Shown: one piece after another, positions 3,601 to 11,686 of the stretch | Numbering within the stretch: position 1 is the first letter of the stretch | Layout of the letters: each line of letters opens with the position of its first letter | Source: Candidatus Methylacidiphilales bacterium | GTDB taxonomy: Bacteria > Pseudomonadota > Gammaproteobacteria > JASGCS01 | DNA: 63,716 bases | Direction: 5' to 3' | NCBI GenBank assembly: GCA_030054035.1 | Contig: JASGCS010000005.1 | Span: forward strand, 50,400 to 114,115 | Translations under genes and position numbers: made by a program | Notes under the pieces: model-generated | Databases searched by the model: none | What the model saw: only the letters and a program-made list of their open reading frames with translations | Told to the model about the DNA's origin: nothing

Positions 3601-3858
3601 GCGATGAAACAGTTCATTATTTTCAAGCATATTTTGACTTGATAAATTCTTCACCATGCTAATAGCTTGATCACTACCCTCTTCTGCAATAGCGGGATTA
3701 ATTATTTCAATAGCTTGCTTTAAACGATCAATCAAAATTACTTCAGTAAAATCTGATCTCTCTTTTTCAAGATCCTCAGGCGATACATACTGCCAGCCTT
3801 GTTTCTGTAAAAGTTTAATTACAAACTCTTCAATATCTGATTCAAATATTTTGGCCAT
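700..3858 (-). CDS. hsdR: Type I restriction enzyme R subunit (HsdR)
   Basis: This 1052-residue protein is the motor and nuclease subunit of a type I restriction-modification complex: it translocates unmodified DNA with ATP and cuts it. The N-terminal nuclease fold has the PD-ExK residues (RRPDVV with D138, then VIELKNP with E152 and K154). The helicase part follows, with Walker A HTQGSGKS near residues 316-323, a DEAH box (VVIADEAHRSQYGF) and the motif TGTPIEKED; a helical C-terminal region completes it. The length is normal for the family. It is the last gene of the operon: its ATG at 3858 overlaps the end of the AAA ATPase gene by 17 nt, so translation is probably coupled. No damage to catalytic motifs is seen. 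Confidence 0.97.
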   Translation of the reverse strand: MAKIFESDIEEFVIKLLQKQGWQYVSPEDLEKERSDFTEVILIDRLKQAIEIINPAIAEEGSDQAISMVKNLSSQNMLENNELFHRLLTRGVEIEVMGEEGIRGDKVWLVDFESPERNEFVVCNQFSVTENGVTRRPDVVLFVNGLPLVVIELKNPIDESATVLKAFTQLQNYKSAIPSLFAYNAVLVASDGLDARAGTVSSEFSRFMSWKSSDGVGVDYDTIPQIETLIKGMLVKKVLLDLIRHFIVFDMSEKVTSVKKIAAYHQYYAVNKAVESTVRACALNEPLMVREDPVSYGLSSVLSQPVGDHKAGVVWHTQGSGKSLSMLFYAGKIILQLRNPTIVVMTDRNDLDDQLFDTFASCKHLLCQDPIQALSRDNLKVLLRVAGGGVVFTTIQKFFPEDGSESFDMLSDRANIVVIADEAHRSQYGFGVKTTEKNGEITTGYGFAKYLRDALPNASFIGFTGTPIEKEDISTPAVFGNYIDVYDIARAVEDGATVRIYYESRLVQVHQKPEMSDLLDAEVDAITEGEESMGAEKAKSKWTQLEAIVGNKDRLKLVASDLIKHFESREGAIVGKGMIVCMSRRIAVELYEEIIAIRPEWHDADLSKGTIKVVMTTSSSDPESWQKHSTNKKSRKSIGDRFKDESNGLKLVIVRDMWLTGFDVPCLHTMYVDKPMRGHNLMQAIARVNRVFKDKDGGLIVDYIGIASNLKSAVATYTTSGGKGTPTFDQSKAVETMLEKYEIVVQMFKEFDYKKYFSSDTRSKLTVILEVQEFILGFGDEYKNRFVKNVVLLSRAFALSVPNLKAMEIKDEVGFFQAVKARLTKFEPEGSGKSDAEIETAIRQIVDKALVSDGIIDVFDAAGIKKPDISVLSDEFLAEIKLMNRKNIALELLRKILGDDIKVRSRKNFIQSRKLSEMLNRAIKRYQSNLLTAAQVIDELVSLAKEIRNSDKRGENLKLKEDELAFYDALADNDSAKEVLGDKQLAVIAVEVFNSVKSNAKIDWTLKENIRAKLRRDVRRILNQYGYPPDKQSEATDRVLKQAELLANELNQ

Positions 3859-6166
3859 TTATTCTTCTCAAGGTATTTAAAAGATTATTAGCATATATTC
3901 GTGTATCTTGGATATTTTTACCAGAAAAAGCATGGTGCTCGTGATTTAGAGATTCTCGGTAGGAATTTAATTTATCATGTATATCTTTTGATATTAATTG
4001 ATGATTATATAAACCAATAATTAATGAATGAAGTGATGAAACAGATATATTATTTTCAAGAATATTATTTTGAAAAATAATTTTTAAATAGTTTTCTAGA
4101 TAAACACGGAGATCTTGGCTTATATCTTCATCATGTTCTTGTTTAATAAAGCGATATATTTTATCAAAAGCCAGCTCTTGGTCAGACTTAGTAAATTTAT
4201 CAACTTTAAGATTGTTATAAGTACAAGTAATATTATTTTTACTTAACTCAAAGTAAGCCGCATTAACTTTATAATTCAATAATCTCTTAATAAAATAAGG
4301 ATAATGTGTAAATACTATAATTTGCTTAAAATCATCAACAAGCGACTTAATGATGTCTACAGTGATTCTAATACGGTGATCATCAAAACTAACAACAGGA
4401 TCATCTAAGACAACTATATACTTATCTTTTTCGGCAAGCGATTGAAGTTTAGTAAGAAATATAGAAAATGCTAGGCTGCGTTTGTCTGATTCACTCAATA
4501 ACTTGTGAATTTGGCCATTTGGAATATCAATATCTTTGTATGAAATATTAAATTCATATACTTTCTTATTACCACGATTATGGGTACTACTTTTCAATTC
4601 AAATTCACCACTACCTAAGCTAGAGTATTGTTTATTTAGCTCATCATAATATTTACAAATGTATTCCGACTGCTCAGTCTCTAAGTTTATCTTTTCAGTT
4701 GCTATTCGATTTTCTAATGTTTTTATTTCCTCTTGCTGTGCAATTCGTATTTCGCAGTCTCTGTTATGATCGATACGATCTTTTTTTCTCTTTAATATTT
4801 CTATATCCTTTCCTACAGTCGCCACTTTAGTTTTAACCTCGTCAGGAGTTAGTTTAGTAATATCTTCCTTGAATTTATTTGCTTTAGAAATGAGATTATC
4901 TAAAATCAGACATTGAGCTTTAAACATATCTAAGAATGCAGATAAAGATAAAGAAAGCTTTTCGCTTAATGTGATATCGCTTGAAGCAACATGAGGTTCT
5001 TTATTTTTTTGTATAATCGCATTCTTCACATATATTTTCCATTCCTCAAGATTTGAATTTAATTCATCTTCCGATATTTTTAGCTGAACAATATCTGATA
5101 CGAACTCTAATGTTGGGTTATATTCTTTATATTTATTAAAGTGGAGTTCCGCCTCAATAAAACTCCTAGTTGCACTAACATTCAATTTATCAATCATCGC
5201 TTCAACGCTTGAAAGTTTTGATGAAATGTCCTTAGTATAACTCTCGTAATTATTATTAAAGTATGAATGATACATATCAATTAATTTACTAGCTAATTCT
5301 GAAATATTCTGACCACAAAATGGACAGTGATCATTTTTTTTAAGAAGCAAGCCTGTCTTAACCCATTGATGAGGCTCTTTATTAGTAATACACTTATCAA
5401 AATGGTCAGTAATAAAATTAAGAGTTTCTTTTGTAACATCCTTATAATTCTTTATAAATTCTAAATTCATTTTTTCAACAACATCCTTAATTTTCTCTTC
5501 TAAGTCAAAGACTGGGACACTAGTTTCAGGTAATGCTGAAATCTTAGCTTGATTATTTAGGTGACTTAATTCATTTTCTTTTAATTTGATAGATTCTTTA
5601 AGCTCCTCAAGGCTCTCATTAACTTGCATATTTATAAATTGATTTATTTCGTCAGCTGTTGAATTTTTATTAAGTGAGCCTGGAATAATTATCTTACTTT
5701 TTAATACGGTTAATTGCTCATTCAGAACTCGTATATTTTCAGAAATACTCACACCACCTTCTCCAAGTATAAAATCTGTATAGGATTCTTTATTCGCACG
5801 TGTTATCTCAAACCCAGTGATTAAATTCCGATGAATAAAATCATTGTCAAATACTAATACTCTCCCCTTAAGATCACTGCTACTCCATTTATCATTGGCA
5901 AACTTATACTCCATCTCCTCACAAGTATTTTTTTTGTAGCACAAGACAACTTCTTGTAAAGTCCTATCCATAGCAGGAATAGATTTACGCACTGTAATTT
6001 GACTTGGATCATCAAGCGCTAGGGAGTTAAAAATATCTTTAAAAGTTGTCTTACCTTGGGTATTTTCACCATAGAAAACAACTGTATTTTTAAATTCATA
6101 TTTTGCTATATCATCTGTTTTATGAAAAACACCTGTTTGAATAATTTTTTTGAAACGTATGAACAT
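3842..6166 (-). CDS. AAA_13-type ATPase, PrrC/RloC-like putative anticodon nuclease
   Basis: This 774-residue protein has an SMC/Rad50-like split ATPase. The N-terminus carries a P-loop, GENTQGKTT at 33-41. Coiled coil follows, interrupted by a zinc-hook-like CPFCG at 281-285. The C-terminal half has an ABC-like signature (SESDKRSLAFS) and Walker B VVLDDPVVSFD. After it lies a helical tail with LRVYLENYLK (R687, E691) and RESLNHEHH (N741-H745), resembling the R-x3-E ... H layout of HEPN-type anticodon nucleases. PrrC and RloC are tRNA anticodon nucleases of this family; prrC lies between hsdS and hsdR, exactly this gene's position, and RloC has a zinc hook. Assignment to the ATPase family is firm; the nuclease activity is inferred. 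It starts 2 nt after the hsdS-fusion stop. Confidence 0.78.
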   Translation of the reverse strand: MFIRFKKIIQTGVFHKTDDIAKYEFKNTVVFYGENTQGKTTFKDIFNSLALDDPSQITVRKSIPAMDRTLQEVVLCYKKNTCEEMEYKFANDKWSSSDLKGRVLVFDNDFIHRNLITGFEITRANKESYTDFILGEGGVSISENIRVLNEQLTVLKSKIIIPGSLNKNSTADEINQFINMQVNESLEELKESIKLKENELSHLNNQAKISALPETSVPVFDLEEKIKDVVEKMNLEFIKNYKDVTKETLNFITDHFDKCITNKEPHQWVKTGLLLKKNDHCPFCGQNISELASKLIDMYHSYFNNNYESYTKDISSKLSSVEAMIDKLNVSATRSFIEAELHFNKYKEYNPTLEFVSDIVQLKISEDELNSNLEEWKIYVKNAIIQKNKEPHVASSDITLSEKLSLSLSAFLDMFKAQCLILDNLISKANKFKEDITKLTPDEVKTKVATVGKDIEILKRKKDRIDHNRDCEIRIAQQEEIKTLENRIATEKINLETEQSEYICKYYDELNKQYSSLGSGEFELKSSTHNRGNKKVYEFNISYKDIDIPNGQIHKLLSESDKRSLAFSIFLTKLQSLAEKDKYIVVLDDPVVSFDDHRIRITVDIIKSLVDDFKQIIVFTHYPYFIKRLLNYKVNAAYFELSKNNITCTYNNLKVDKFTKSDQELAFDKIYRFIKQEHDEDISQDLRVYLENYLKIIFQNNILENNISVSSLHSLIIGLYNHQLISKDIHDKLNSYRESLNHEHHAFSGKNIQDTRIYANNLLNTLRRINGQNI

Positions 6167-6168
6167 AA

Positions 6169-7698
6169 TTAGTTGCCAAATCCTTTAATTCTCACTTCAC
6201 CACTCATTAGTTTTGGTAAAAGCGAATCTCGAAATGTCGAAAGTGTTTGAATCTGAAACGAGTTCTCAATTATTTTTTCAAATACAGGATATGAAAGAAC
6301 ATTAAAGGATTCTAGAACTTTGTGCGTTGGAATTAGCAACTCTAAATTTTCTACTTCTTGTTTGTTAATGTGCTGTTGCGCCCCTCCAGTAGCACAAGAG
6401 TAGAGCTTATTCTTCATTTGTTGAATCCAAAAATATATATAACCACATGAGAATTTTTCTGTTTCTAATAGGCCTAAAACAGACTGATTTCCTGATGATT
6501 CAATACCCAAAAAACTAACTTTTATTTCGCTTCCACGGGTAATAACGAAAGGAAGAACTACTGTTTTTGCAGGCATCAATTTTGCAGCAGAGTTTTTTAA
6601 CCCATCTTCAGTGATATATTCCGAAGCTCGCATGATTGGAAAGTTATTTATTGCTCCAGAGTTAATCCAAGGAATTGAACCGGTATCCCAGAATAGATTG
6701 TTAGCTCGACTAGGCGTCCCCCCTAAAATTGTTTTTATATCATATTTAATTTTACCAATCTTCCATCCCTTAGGTATTTTCCCAAGTTCTGAATCAACCA
6801 TCCTCCCAGTTGCTCCAGGATAATTAAATTTAACAAACCATTCTTTGAAAATTGTTTGGGCGATGGCCTCTAATGTCTTGCTCTGCTCTCGTAATAGTTC
6901 AATCTTATCATCAAGTGATGATAACACAGCTGCAATTGCATTTTGTTCGCCAAGTGGCGGTAAACTGAGTGAAAGGTTCGTCAAAAGTAATTGGTTTAGA
7001 TTTTGCTGAGCGGCGCCAGTTGCCATATTTTTAATTTCAGAATATCTACTTAACAAATTAAAGTAAATAAAGTGATAATTTGATCGATCAATATCTAAAA
7101 TAAAATTACAACACGCTTGATTTGTTGTGAGATTAATTTTCGTAAGTGCAACTCTTCCTGCTGATTCGCCATACATAGCAATAATTACTGAATTTTTTGG
7201 AACCCATTTTGCGGAAGAATTAGCCAAGGCTTCATTTGTGATTTTTATATCTGTACTATAAATATAATTAAAATTAACCTCTTGTGTTCTTAACCACGGA
7301 ATATCCCCTTCAATATAATATTTTTTATTTGAAGTTGATGGCGTCCCGCCGCTATGCACTTTATTCGCCACCGCTCCCAATGTCGTCGTTTTCCATCCCT
7401 TAATATAGAATATTTTTTTAGTCCTTTGATACTCTTTGTAGAGGGATTCATCAGTGATTAAATTATGATTAATTAGGTCAATTGAGTAGATGATATGCAG
7501 ATCATTTAATTGATCTTTAATAGTGGATGTAATGTTTTTGTGATTAGGGGCAAGTTCTATTGCTAGGTCAATATCTGAAGTTCTAGTGAATGTATTGGTT
7601 GCCCTAGAGCCATAAATGAAAGCTCTCGTTATCTGTGTATGCTTGGCAAACACATTATGGATTAGTGATATTTCTTCAGTGGTCAGACCAAATTTCAT
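6169..7698 (-). CDS. hsdS: MntA-type nucleotidyltransferase fused to type I specificity subunit HsdS
   Basis: One uninterrupted 509-codon frame joins two proteins. Residues 1-100 are a complete minimal nucleotidyltransferase of the MntA antitoxin type: GS at 30-31, ten residues, then D42-I-D44 (the GSX10DXD motif), and a third carboxylate D74 in IDLIN. From about residue 102 (GWKTTTLGAV) a normal-sized HsdS follows: target-recognition domain 1, a helical conserved region near 250-290 (SSLDDKIELLREQSK), domain 2 with its own start-like GWKIGKI, and a terminal conserved helix (DSLLPKLMSGEVR). HsdS determines the DNA sequence read by the M2S methylase and the R2M2S nuclease. There is no linker between the domains. 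The ATG overlaps the hepT-like stop as ATGA, so both halves of the toxin-antitoxin pair are translationally coupled. Confidence 0.93.
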   Translation of the reverse strand: MKFGLTTEEISLIHNVFAKHTQITRAFIYGSRATNTFTRTSDIDLAIELAPNHKNITSTIKDQLNDLHIIYSIDLINHNLITDESLYKEYQRTKKIFYIKGWKTTTLGAVANKVHSGGTPSTSNKKYYIEGDIPWLRTQEVNFNYIYSTDIKITNEALANSSAKWVPKNSVIIAMYGESAGRVALTKINLTTNQACCNFILDIDRSNYHFIYFNLLSRYSEIKNMATGAAQQNLNQLLLTNLSLSLPPLGEQNAIAAVLSSLDDKIELLREQSKTLEAIAQTIFKEWFVKFNYPGATGRMVDSELGKIPKGWKIGKIKYDIKTILGGTPSRANNLFWDTGSIPWINSGAINNFPIMRASEYITEDGLKNSAAKLMPAKTVVLPFVITRGSEIKVSFLGIESSGNQSVLGLLETEKFSCGYIYFWIQQMKNKLYSCATGGAQQHINKQEVENLELLIPTHKVLESFNVLSYPVFEKIIENSFQIQTLSTFRDSLLPKLMSGEVRIKGFGN

Positions 7699-8090
7699 TC
7701 TGAATGATTGTTGAGGTAGTTAATAAGATCTTGAATAGCAGTTATGTACTTAGTCGTTATTTGTCTGTGGATGCTTCTACTATCAGTATCAGAATATCTA
7801 TGAGTTAGTGTGTTTCTATCATTAAACATGGCTAGCCATGTTTGGTCATCCGTAATAATTTGAGCTTTAAATGCAGTTTTTAAGACTGCTTTAGGGGATG
7901 ATGTATCTTGATGTCCTAGTTCTTCTAGGTAAATCTTTAATGTTTTCCAAACTAGCTCATAAGTGAATTCAAATCGTTGAATGGTGCCATCAATCTCAAG
8001 TTCATTTGGGTTATCTATTTTTGTTGCTTCAAGTAGCCTATTAAATGCTTTTTGTAGCTTATCCATATTCAATTGCCATCTATAATTCAT
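7695..8090 (-). CDS. HepT-like HEPN toxin (HI0074 / nucleotidyltransferase substrate-binding family)
   Basis: This 131-residue all-helical protein has the HI0074-family signature RFEFTYELVWKTLK and the HEPN RNase motif RNTLTHRY: R92, four residues, H97, one residue, Y99. RX4HXY is the motif of HepT toxins, in which R and H are catalytic and the tyrosine is adenylylated by the partner MntA to switch the RNase off. The partner domain is the N-terminus of the next gene, overlapped by 4 nt. The gene lies 17 nt downstream of hsdM. ATG at 8090 gives the family length; an internal Met at residue 9 is an alternative start. Toxin function is inferred from the motif and the pairing. Confidence 0.9.
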   Translation of the reverse strand: MNYRWQLNMDKLQKAFNRLLEATKIDNPNELEIDGTIQRFEFTYELVWKTLKIYLEELGHQDTSSPKAVLKTAFKAQIITDDQTWLAMFNDRNTLTHRYSDTDSRSIHRQITTKYITAIQDLINYLNNHSE

Positions 8091-9898: not shown

Positions 9899-10198
9899 TT
9901 ATATTTTAATTTCAGTACCAATAAATTTTAATATGGTGTCTTTAATTTTATTTGTTCTCTTAATAATATCTTCTTTCGTCCAATCATCTTTATTGTGATA
10001 ACATAATTCTTGAACTGCAGGATTCCATATTTTTTTACTTTCAAGTGACAAATTATATTTTTCTTTCTTTAGCTTAAAATACTTATCTCCAGCTTTAATG
10101 TTGGTTTTCTTATCAAGCGCAACTTTATTACCAAGATATTCAATATATTTCTTGCCAAGTGAAGATTTATTTACATTTAAACTAACATTTTCAGTCAT
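9899..10198 (-). CDS. Short protein resembling the C-terminal tail of DUF1524 (GmrSD-type) nucleases
   Basis: This 99-residue protein has an ATG at 10198. Its order of features, IEYLGNKVALDKKTNIKAG, then KYFKLKKEKYN, then KDDWTKEDIIKRTNKI, matches the C-terminal end of DUF262/DUF1524 proteins, where LGN(L/x)xLL is followed by a Lys-rich turn and W-T-x-x-x-I-x-x-R. The DUF262 part and the HNH residues are absent, so this is either a decayed remnant of a GmrSD-like modification-dependent nuclease or a stand-alone stub. Its place between a restriction operon and a cyclase/peptidase pair fits a decayed defence gene. The family match is by pattern only. Confidence 0.5.
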   Translation of the reverse strand: MTENVSLNVNKSSLGKKYIEYLGNKVALDKKTNIKAGDKYFKLKKEKYNLSLESKKIWNPAVQELCYHNKDDWTKEDIIKRTNKIKDTILKFIGTEIKI

Positions 10199-10251: not shown

Positions 10252-11109
10252 TTAAGATATTAATTCTTTCGCCATTGTCTGTATGTATCGTTTATGGGAT
10301 TCTGGAAAATCCCCAAATATCACATTGTCCATATCACCAAGCAGATAGGGCTTGCAAAAGAACAATTCATTATTGACGCTTTTAAATAACTCATCTAAGT
10401 AAGCTAATGATTCTTTAGGGTTTGCTTCTTTACTTCCTTTCATGCTATTGAATTTATTTTGCAACTCAGAAATCTCAATATAATATATTGGATATAATTC
10501 ACCTTCCAGTAATCCTTTTATATTTTCCAGTTTATAAAAATATAAAGGTAGATTTTTATTATGGTAATCACTGTTAGGTTTAGACATGTATTGAAATAGA
10601 AAATAGGCTAGTTCGGCTGTAATACATAAATAATCTGCAGTGGAATATTTTGAGATTCTAAATCCAGCATCTATACTTGGTCCAATAAAGTCAAATGATC
10701 CTACATTGTTATTGTCATAATCATTTCTAAAACTCATATTGATTACTGGGAAGCCTGCAATCCATGCTGTCCCTTTAATTGGAAGTTCTTTGATGGGATT
10801 AAATTTTCTCATTTCTTTAATGGTGTCTATAAATATTTTTAAGCCATTTACCAAAGTTTGTGGTTGTTTAATATCCACATAGTAAATTAGCTCATCTCCT
10901 AAAAATTTCCAATAGTTATAATTTAATTCGATATAGCTTTTTTGATGTTCACGGAGGGCGCGGTTAAATCTTTCAAAACACTCAACGATAGAACTTCTCC
11001 AGTCTTTATCACTTGTAAGATTTTCAGAGAGATGCTTAGTTTTAAATTCTGTAGAACCAACTAAATCAACACTTAGAAACAATTTTAAGCTACTTGCACT
11101 TTCAAGCAC
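10252..11109 (-). CDS. Class III nucleotidyl-cyclase-like protein
   Basis: This 285-residue protein carries the landmarks of a class III cyclase homology domain: FLSVDLVGST (metal-binding D15), YWKFLGDEL (K68, second metal Asp D72), and DFIGPSIDAGFRISKYS (about 140-156), which corresponds to the family's G-x-x-V-N-x-A-x-R segment. The C-terminal 100 residues are helical and unassigned. No transmembrane or sensor domain is seen, so it is cytosolic. The start is GTG at 11109, one base after the stop of the ImmA/IrrE gene (TAA-t-GTG), so the two are surely co-translated. Stand-alone cyclases in defence islands include the cCMP/cUMP synthases of Pycsar, but no Pycsar effector is recognised here. 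The cyclase fold is likely; product and role are unknown. Confidence 0.72.
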   Translation of the reverse strand: MLESASSLKLFLSVDLVGSTEFKTKHLSENLTSDKDWRSSIVECFERFNRALREHQKSYIELNYNYWKFLGDELIYYVDIKQPQTLVNGLKIFIDTIKEMRKFNPIKELPIKGTAWIAGFPVINMSFRNDYDNNNVGSFDFIGPSIDAGFRISKYSTADYLCITAELAYFLFQYMSKPNSDYHNKNLPLYFYKLENIKGLLEGELYPIYYIEISELQNKFNSMKGSKEANPKESLAYLDELFKSVNNELFFCKPYLLGDMDNVIFGDFPESHKRYIQTMAKELIS

Positions 11110-11110
11110 A

Positions 11111-11686
11111 TTAATTCAAATTTAATGTTTTTAGTCTGACAGCAATAGCGGCATCGGAAACATTGAAATGAATTGATAATTTAATATTCTTATTGTCATC
11201 ACCATGCAATCTACTATTTTCATCTCTAAAAGATTCGCTTGGCATTAGAAATGCCCCTGCAAAATAATTAGCTTGATATTCCATTTTATCACTAGCAATT
11301 TCTCTCTTGAAAACACTGGGAATCGCCCCCTCATTTGCATGAAGGTAGTAATGTCCGAGCTCATGTGCAATCGTAAATCTATCTCGTTTAAAAGAAGTTC
11401 CTTTTGGAATATAAACGACAAAGGATTTGTCTGTTGCTATACTTATAGCTCCAGAGATTTTATTTTCGTAATCAAAATCATAATTACAATATTCAATTCT
11501 TCCATTAATATTTTTAACTAGCTCAGTTAAGTCTTCTCCAGGTTTATACCCTAGACGCTCTGCCTTTTGCTCTGCAAGCCGCATTATTTCTTCATTAGTT
11601 AAAGTGCTTGGTTCTATTTTTGGTATGTCGGTGACTAAATCGTGCAATTTATATTCTTTTGGGACTGGGTTGTTATTAATACCCAT
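11111..11686 (-). CDS. ImmA/IrrE-family zinc metallopeptidase
   Basis: This 191-residue protein has the HExxH motif in FTIAHELGHYYLH and the third ligand region EYQANYFAGAFLMP, followed by the family's closing segment SDAAIAVRLKTL. Members cleave repressors or regulators in response to damage or phage signals. The usual N-terminal helix-turn-helix is missing, so target choice must come from another protein. It is followed after one base by the cyclase-like gene. The start lies 11 bp downstream of the htpX stop, so the pair may be read through from htpX or from a promoter inside it. Confidence 0.9.
   Translation of the reverse strand: MGINNNPVPKEYKLHDLVTDIPKIEPSTLTNEEIMRLAEQKAERLGYKPGEDLTELVKNINGRIEYCNYDFDYENKISGAISIATDKSFVVYIPKGTSFKRDRFTIAHELGHYYLHANEGAIPSVFKREIASDKMEYQANYFAGAFLMPSESFRDENSRLHGDDNKNIKLSIHFNVSDAAIAVRLKTLNLN

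Follow-up and report, generated by a model that had tools for sequence, protein, structure and literature searches.

In the stretch of DNA analysed here (the window, 63,716 nucleotides), a HEPN-MNT toxin-antitoxin pair (type VII-like, of the HI0073/HI0074, Legionella class) is merged into a type I restriction-modification operon, and its antitoxin is built covalently into the restriction machinery, as the N-terminal domain of the specificity subunit HsdS. Such fusions, mostly to HsdS but in single cases to HsdM or HsdR, appear to have been made repeatedly and occur across many phyla, where the database name 'restriction endonuclease subunit S' hides them. By analogy with characterised pairs, the fusion would link the status of restriction directly to toxin activity, and it looks like a fail-safe built into a phage-defence machine.

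The operon lies on the minus strand in the order hsdM, HEPN, MNT::HsdS, AAA_13 ATPase and hsdR (Table 1), with an overlap of 17 bases between the last two genes. All three type I components, i.e., hsdM, hsdS and hsdR, are full length and belong to this single operon, and the HEPN gene sits inside it, between hsdM and the fusion gene, which is the layout of a PrrC-like guard. Parts were assigned with Pfam, NCBIfam and PADLOC profiles, and folds with AlphaFold2 and Foldseek.

Table 1. Features of the hsd operon in the window.
Feature	Position	Strand	Evidence
hsdM, type I N6-adenine methyltransferase subunit, 517 aa	8108..9661	-	N6_Mtase 3e-108, HsdM_N 3e-25 (Pfam); PADLOC MTase_I 6e-198
HEPN RNase toxin (predicted; HepT-like, HI0074 class), 131 aa	7695..8090	-	PF08780 2e-33; TIGR01987 104 bits; solved relatives 1wty, 8xdj, 1jog
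ATGA stop/start overlap, toxin TGA over fusion-gene ATG	7695..7698	-	sequence
MNT antitoxin (predicted nucleotidyltransferase) domain, fusion residues 1-99	7402..7698	-	PF18765 7e-14; Foldseek 8xeo TM 0.91
HsdS specificity subunit, fusion residues 100-509, full length	6169..7401	-	Methylase_S 2e-35; AlphaFold2 pLDDT 89; Foldseek 1yf2 1.6e-36
AAA_13 SMC-like ATPase, 774 aa, between fusion gene and hsdR	3842..6166	-	PF13166 1e-31; PADLOC candidate PDC-S06 1e-154
hsdR, type I restriction/translocase subunit, 1052 aa	700..3858	-	HSDR_N, SWI2_SNF2, T1RH-like_C 6e-125 (Pfam)

Both central open reading frames, their ATGA coupling and the RX4HXY motif of the first (R92-NTLT-H97-R-Y99) are as an earlier note on this DNA had described them. 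Besides its match to NTase_sub_bind (PF08780), the toxin matches HepT-like PF01934 (3e-6), and it scores 104.2 bits against TIGR01987, the HI0074-class model, whose cut-off is 55.8. An adjoining MNT of Pol-beta fold, with GSX10DXD and a third Asp, completes the features of the HI0073/HI0074 class. In contrast, the Shewanella-type NCBIfam equivalogs score only 21.4 bits (HepT) and 35.2 bits (MntA) against a cut-off of 60 each. The earlier description of a complete HepT/MntA toxin-antitoxin pair is thus right as to its completeness, but the subclass is that of Legionella and not that of Shewanella. In an alignment of 28 fusion-linked toxins (about 25% identity), the only invariant residues are Q38, F40, E41, R92, H97 and Y99. 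All of these except F40 would belong to one of the two proposed active sites or to the AMP acceptor: R92 and H97 correspond to the classical HEPN site, Q38 and E41 to a putative Mg-site pair, and Y99 to the acceptor. The Mg site of the Legionella toxin (Q44/E47) was found to be essential (PMC11586414), and the AMP-receiving Tyr is known from the Shewanella and Legionella toxins (PMC7641770, PMC11586414).

The fusion ORF (6169..7698, minus strand, 509 aa) begins with an MNT domain whose catalytic motif reads G30-S31-X10-D42-x-D44, with D74 as the third Asp, and continues into a complete HsdS with two target-recognition domains and two long helical conserved regions. Pfam places Polbeta (PF18765) at residues 13-98 and finds Methylase_S (PF01420) in the remainder. 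An AlphaFold2 model based on an alignment of 33 fusions, in which the invariant MNT residues include G30, S31, D42, D44 and D74, has a mean pLDDT of 89.2; because its final MNT strand (residues 95-99) is followed so closely by the first HsdS strand (103-106), there is no linker. When the model was submitted to Foldseek, it retrieved HsdS structures (1yf2 among them), and its N-terminal part (about 100 residues) retrieved the Legionella pneumophila MNT antitoxin 8xeo (target-normalised TM 0.91, rmsd 1.7 A). Sequence, profiles and structure therefore agree with the claim that a full MNT domain runs without linker into a normal HsdS. The window gene has no ATG or GTG from the end of its MNT to the first HsdS strand, so that full-length HsdS can be made only as the fusion and every M2S complex must carry one MNT; judged from the sequence, the antitoxin thus has to travel with HsdS, as had been proposed, and so to be present in the holoenzyme.

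The same architecture was sought elsewhere. Searches with the MNT domain through 369 genomes of the window's class and 398 of its phylum returned long open frames that were MNT::HsdS, plus one MNT::HsdR and one MNT::HsdM, and of the 18 ORFs in the two sampled sets that bear this MNT and reach 350 aa or more, 17 are type I subunits. A second MNT class, 'class B' (WAFGSRAKWTAK..SDLDL), whose alignment served as the query for a scan of GTDB genomes, yielded 80 loci, mostly of the order HsdM - HEPN - MNT::HsdS - HsdR. After dereplication across all loci, the count of fused ORFs is 69 (67 MNT::HsdS, one MNT::HsdM and one MNT::HsdR). By record title they come from at least 10 bacterial phyla, most of the genomes being metagenome bins for which individual phylum labels need caution: Pseudomonadota, Chloroflexota, Planctomycetota, Nitrospirota, Acidobacteriota and Cloacimonadota, together with Bipolaricaulota, Fibrobacterota, Melainabacteria, Actinomycetota and Myxococcota. 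Isolates with the fusion include Pseudomonas sp. 8Z, Xanthomonas arboricola, X. nasturtii, Nitrosomonas mobilis, Novosphingobium and Sphingobium, and it is also carried by the finished Zymomonas mobilis plasmid pZMOB01 (NC_017180.1). The Zymomonas protein (389-1972, WP_014466389.1) has an N-terminal MNT, yet is titled plainly 'restriction endonuclease subunit S'; its partners on pZMOB01 (strain ATCC 10988) are HsdM WP_014466415, HEPN WP_014466388 and HsdR WP_014466390. MNT and HsdS occur as separate neighbouring genes in about 10 loci, and on an Acetobacter plasmid HEPN, MNT and HsdS are three overlapping genes. With the window's HsdM as query (sampled genomes of the class, E <= 1e-100), 21 further loci were examined, and 4 of them, or about one in five, have an intact pair directly downstream. 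Searches at the family and order levels returned the window's own genome only, and two scans of viral contigs returned no relatives.

Several loci depart from the common form. L069 (158-3761) has a HEPN gene followed by an MNT on the N-terminus of an EcoR124-like HsdR (1064 aa; R-subunit and helicase domains by Pfam), and L080 encodes an MNT::HsdM of 687 aa, confirmed by Pfam. This Magnetococcales operon (L080 3193-6882, identical to L160) contains two HEPN-MNT pairs, one on HsdM and the next on an HsdS from which most of the middle has been deleted, and the shortened protein (6157-6882) retains a full MNT. HEPN and MNT are united in one polypeptide, as a single-chain toxin-antitoxin, at L084 2965-3873 (also L052) and in L050. 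Some candidates were rejected: among the plasmid tblastn hits H1-H9, which at first looked like matches across the fusion, H1, H3 and H4 were inspected and, like H17, are internal matches in ordinary HsdS; the 522-aa frame of L029 has a real ORF of 153 aa; and L071 is an MNT-like stretch inside an unrelated ORF.

The toxin accompanies the fusion almost without fail. Of the 69 fused ORFs, 66 have a HEPN gene immediately upstream in the same orientation, the commonest spacing among these loci being a 4-nt overlap, and RX4HXY is kept by 64 of the 66 adjoining toxins and GSX10DXD by 68 of the 69 fusions. Judged from their predicted gene content, the exceptions obey toxin-antitoxin logic: L117 has lost its MNT active site along with the end of HEPN while keeping HsdS; in L150 and L076, the toxin alone has been lost; and L201, which has the sole HEPN-like gene found without an MNT, no longer has RX4HXY.

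The relationships among MNT domains indicate that there were several independent fusions. On a tree of 151 MNT domains, which are short sequences, so that many forks are unresolved, and in which some of the 'alone' rows come from incomplete contigs, parsimony counts 21 changes between fused and unfused states, and at least five are forced by well-supported branches; the L066 fusion, for example, sits within a clade of otherwise unfused MNTs that has 100% support. Because the window MNT groups with the mostly unfused class A, away from the bulk of class B (its exact place being fixed by no starred branch), the window fusion was probably an event separate from those in class B. Several class B fusions have a start codon at the junction, just before HsdS (GMxxEW), and the window gene has none. 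These relic starts suggest that fusions arose by loss of the stop codon between overlapping MNT and hsdS genes, and some class B fusions may also produce free HsdS. Pairwise distances co-vary most strongly between HsdM and HsdR (Spearman 0.81), followed by toxin and MNT (0.64; permutation maximum 0.23), MNT and HsdM (0.56), toxin and HsdM (0.39), and toxin and HsdR (0.11, not significant). Since the toxin co-varies more with its MNT than with HsdM or HsdR, the pair appears to move as a unit that is swapped among restriction systems.

Other genes near the fusion were also considered. The C-terminus of the AAA_13 protein has an R737/N741/H745 pattern that is kept in two relatives, which are plasmid-borne and stand alone in Psychrobacter and Yersinia; a sequence search for solved relatives of this protein returned none. 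With a layout distantly like that of PrrC and RloC and a putative nuclease, the ATPase may be a second suicide effector of the PrrC/RloC kind. The possibility that it always accompanies the fusion was rejected: the only other such locus, L119, has a different subtype without the C-terminal pattern. Beyond hsdM, a short ORF (9899-10198, minus strand) matches only the C-terminal part of the GmrSD type IV restriction enzyme and is probably a remnant. A 285-aa ORF (10252-11109, minus strand) with a class III cyclase-like motif (LSVDLVGSTEF) and no Pfam match adjoins an M78 peptidase that resembles CapP (11111-11686, minus strand; PADLOC 3e-25), and the two are possibly a further defence module beside the hsd operon.

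In characterised pairs, the MNT blocks the HEPN RNase by covalent AMPylation of a tyrosine from ATP (PMC7641770, PMC11586414). The C-terminal helix by which Shewanella MntA is anchored to its toxin is absent from the Legionella MNT, which has a weak affinity for a HEPN tetramer and modifies it incompletely, and the authors of that study propose that HEPN is activated at low ATP or after de-AMPylation (PMC11586414). Because the window HsdS starts exactly where the C-terminal helix of an MNT would be, HsdS may supply an anchor or an allosteric input to the MNT. If the window pair acts as its published relatives do, the MNT domain would move AMP from ATP onto Y99 of HEPN and block the RNase, and MNT::HsdS would assemble with HsdM and HsdR, the toxin being bound and modified on the holoenzyme. 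Upon operon loss, translation shut-off, or displacement, degradation or inhibition of the holoenzyme (e.g., by a phage antirestriction protein or a fall in ATP), newly made or de-modified HEPN would then remain active, cut cellular RNA and stall the cell, and the pair would put a price on losing the restriction system or having it overcome, as PrrC does in the case of EcoPrrI.

The earlier note had held that loss or inhibition of HsdS would free the toxin, a trigger that is too simple. AMPylation is covalent, so HsdS loss would not at once free modified toxin, and either new, unmodified toxin or de-AMPylation would be needed. Moreover, since the target-recognition domains lie C-terminal to the MNT, most lesions or truncations of HsdS would leave the antitoxin intact, as in the truncated Magnetococcales protein; and the loci in which MNT and HsdS are separate genes imply that the fusion is not strictly required. 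We consider it probable, on balance, that a HEPN-MNT pair with its antitoxin as the N-terminus of HsdS is a PrrC-like guard as well as an addiction module. A more specific form of this model can be put forward only tentatively: HsdS would double as an AMP-transferase, and the occupancy or conformation of the holoenzyme (under antirestriction proteins, DNA mimics or ATP loss) would gate AMPylation of HEPN, such that phage inhibition is itself the trigger and the defeat of restriction leads to growth arrest. If this gating were to operate, type I restriction enzymes of a widespread class would carry their own fail-safe.

An explanation by artefact or chance, i.e., a frameshift, misassembly or one-off fusion, would fit the order-level search, which returned the window genome only. 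However, the open frame is clean, the linker-free model is confident, and the architecture is seen again, after dereplication, in 68 further fused ORFs and on the finished Zymomonas plasmid; recurrence refutes this explanation, whose probability is negligible, and with it the objection that a sequencing error had created the fusion. It is also conceivable that the pair is no toxin system, and that HEPN is a substrate-binding subunit with which the MNT modifies HsdM, HsdR, HsdS or a phage factor, thereby tuning restriction. Such a role is favored by the name of the family (nucleotidyltransferase substrate-binding), by older literature that PMC3710099 quotes and by the near-constant presence of HEPN beside MNT; but we regard it as very improbable, given that the RNase residues and the acceptor Tyr are invariant in 28 toxins and that the close structural relatives from Legionella have been tested as toxin and antitoxin (PMC11586414).

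A more serious alternative is that the pair does no more than penalise cells in which the operon is lost or silenced; the fusion would ensure that the antitoxin is made together with HsdS, and the state of HsdS would go unsensed. The toxin-first order and translational coupling of nearly all loci are in accord with such plain addiction; split HepT-MNT-HsdS operons would serve equally well; and the exchange of the pair among restriction systems, with several copies borne on plasmids, and the weak co-variation of toxin and HsdR, fit it too. What it does not readily accommodate is repeated, independent fusion to type I subunits specifically (mostly S, also M and R): since overlapping genes already give co-expression, fusion suggests something more. 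We therefore favor guard plus addiction over addiction alone, which is possible, though clearly the less probable of the two. The system is widespread, seemingly convergent, and readily testable.

To our knowledge, guards of restriction systems are known in few cases, namely PrrC, PARIS and embedded DarTG. The co-location of HEPN toxins with restriction genes, the analogy to PrrC and the presence of a toxin-antitoxin pair in a type I operon are already known (PMC3506569, PMC3710099, PMC12255303). HEPN toxins near restriction-modification genes were proposed in 2012-2013 to be a PrrC-like back-up (Makarova et al. 2012, PMC3506569; Anantharaman et al. 2013, PMC3710099), and the relevant passages of these papers describe HEPN fused to nucleases, helicases and ATPases, with no mention of MNT fused to HsdS. 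A 2025 review of restriction (PMC12707154) gave no match for HEPN or nucleotidyltransferase. In the main texts of the open-licence papers searched, no description was found of an MNT antitoxin fused to HsdS, HsdM or HsdR; fusion of an antitoxin to a restriction subunit thus seems undescribed before, prior mention elsewhere being possible.

Of the systems compared, the Legionella pneumophila HEPN-MNT pair (type VII; PDB 8xdj, 8xeh, 8xeo; PMC11586414) shares with the window an HI0074-class HEPN, RX4HXY, the Q/E Mg site, a short MNT without long C-terminal helix, and neighbouring genes; but its MNT is a free 108-aa protein, whereas that of the window continues at its C-terminus into HsdS within a type I operon. 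The Shewanella oneidensis HepT/MntA pair (type VII; PMC7641770) likewise combines an RX4HXY toxin, a GSX10DXD adenylyltransferase antitoxin and a Tyr acceptor, but MntA has the C-terminal helix, forms a HepT6-MntA2 octamer and has no tie to restriction, and the window pair falls below its NCBIfam cut-offs. DarTG2 in an E. coli type I system (PMC12255303) is also a toxin-antitoxin pair inside an hsd operon, in a tested phage-defence island; its toxin chemistry is different, however, and its genes are separate, lie between hsdS and hsdR, and are fused to no restriction subunit. Finally, in PrrC-EcoPrrI, the anticodon nuclease guard of a type Ic system (PMC3710099, PMC12707154), a HEPN-fold RNase encoded in a type I hsd operon is a second line if restriction is blocked. 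PrrC is a single ATPase-nuclease protein that is kept inactive by binding, whereas in the window a separate HEPN would be held in check by an enzyme domain of HsdS itself.
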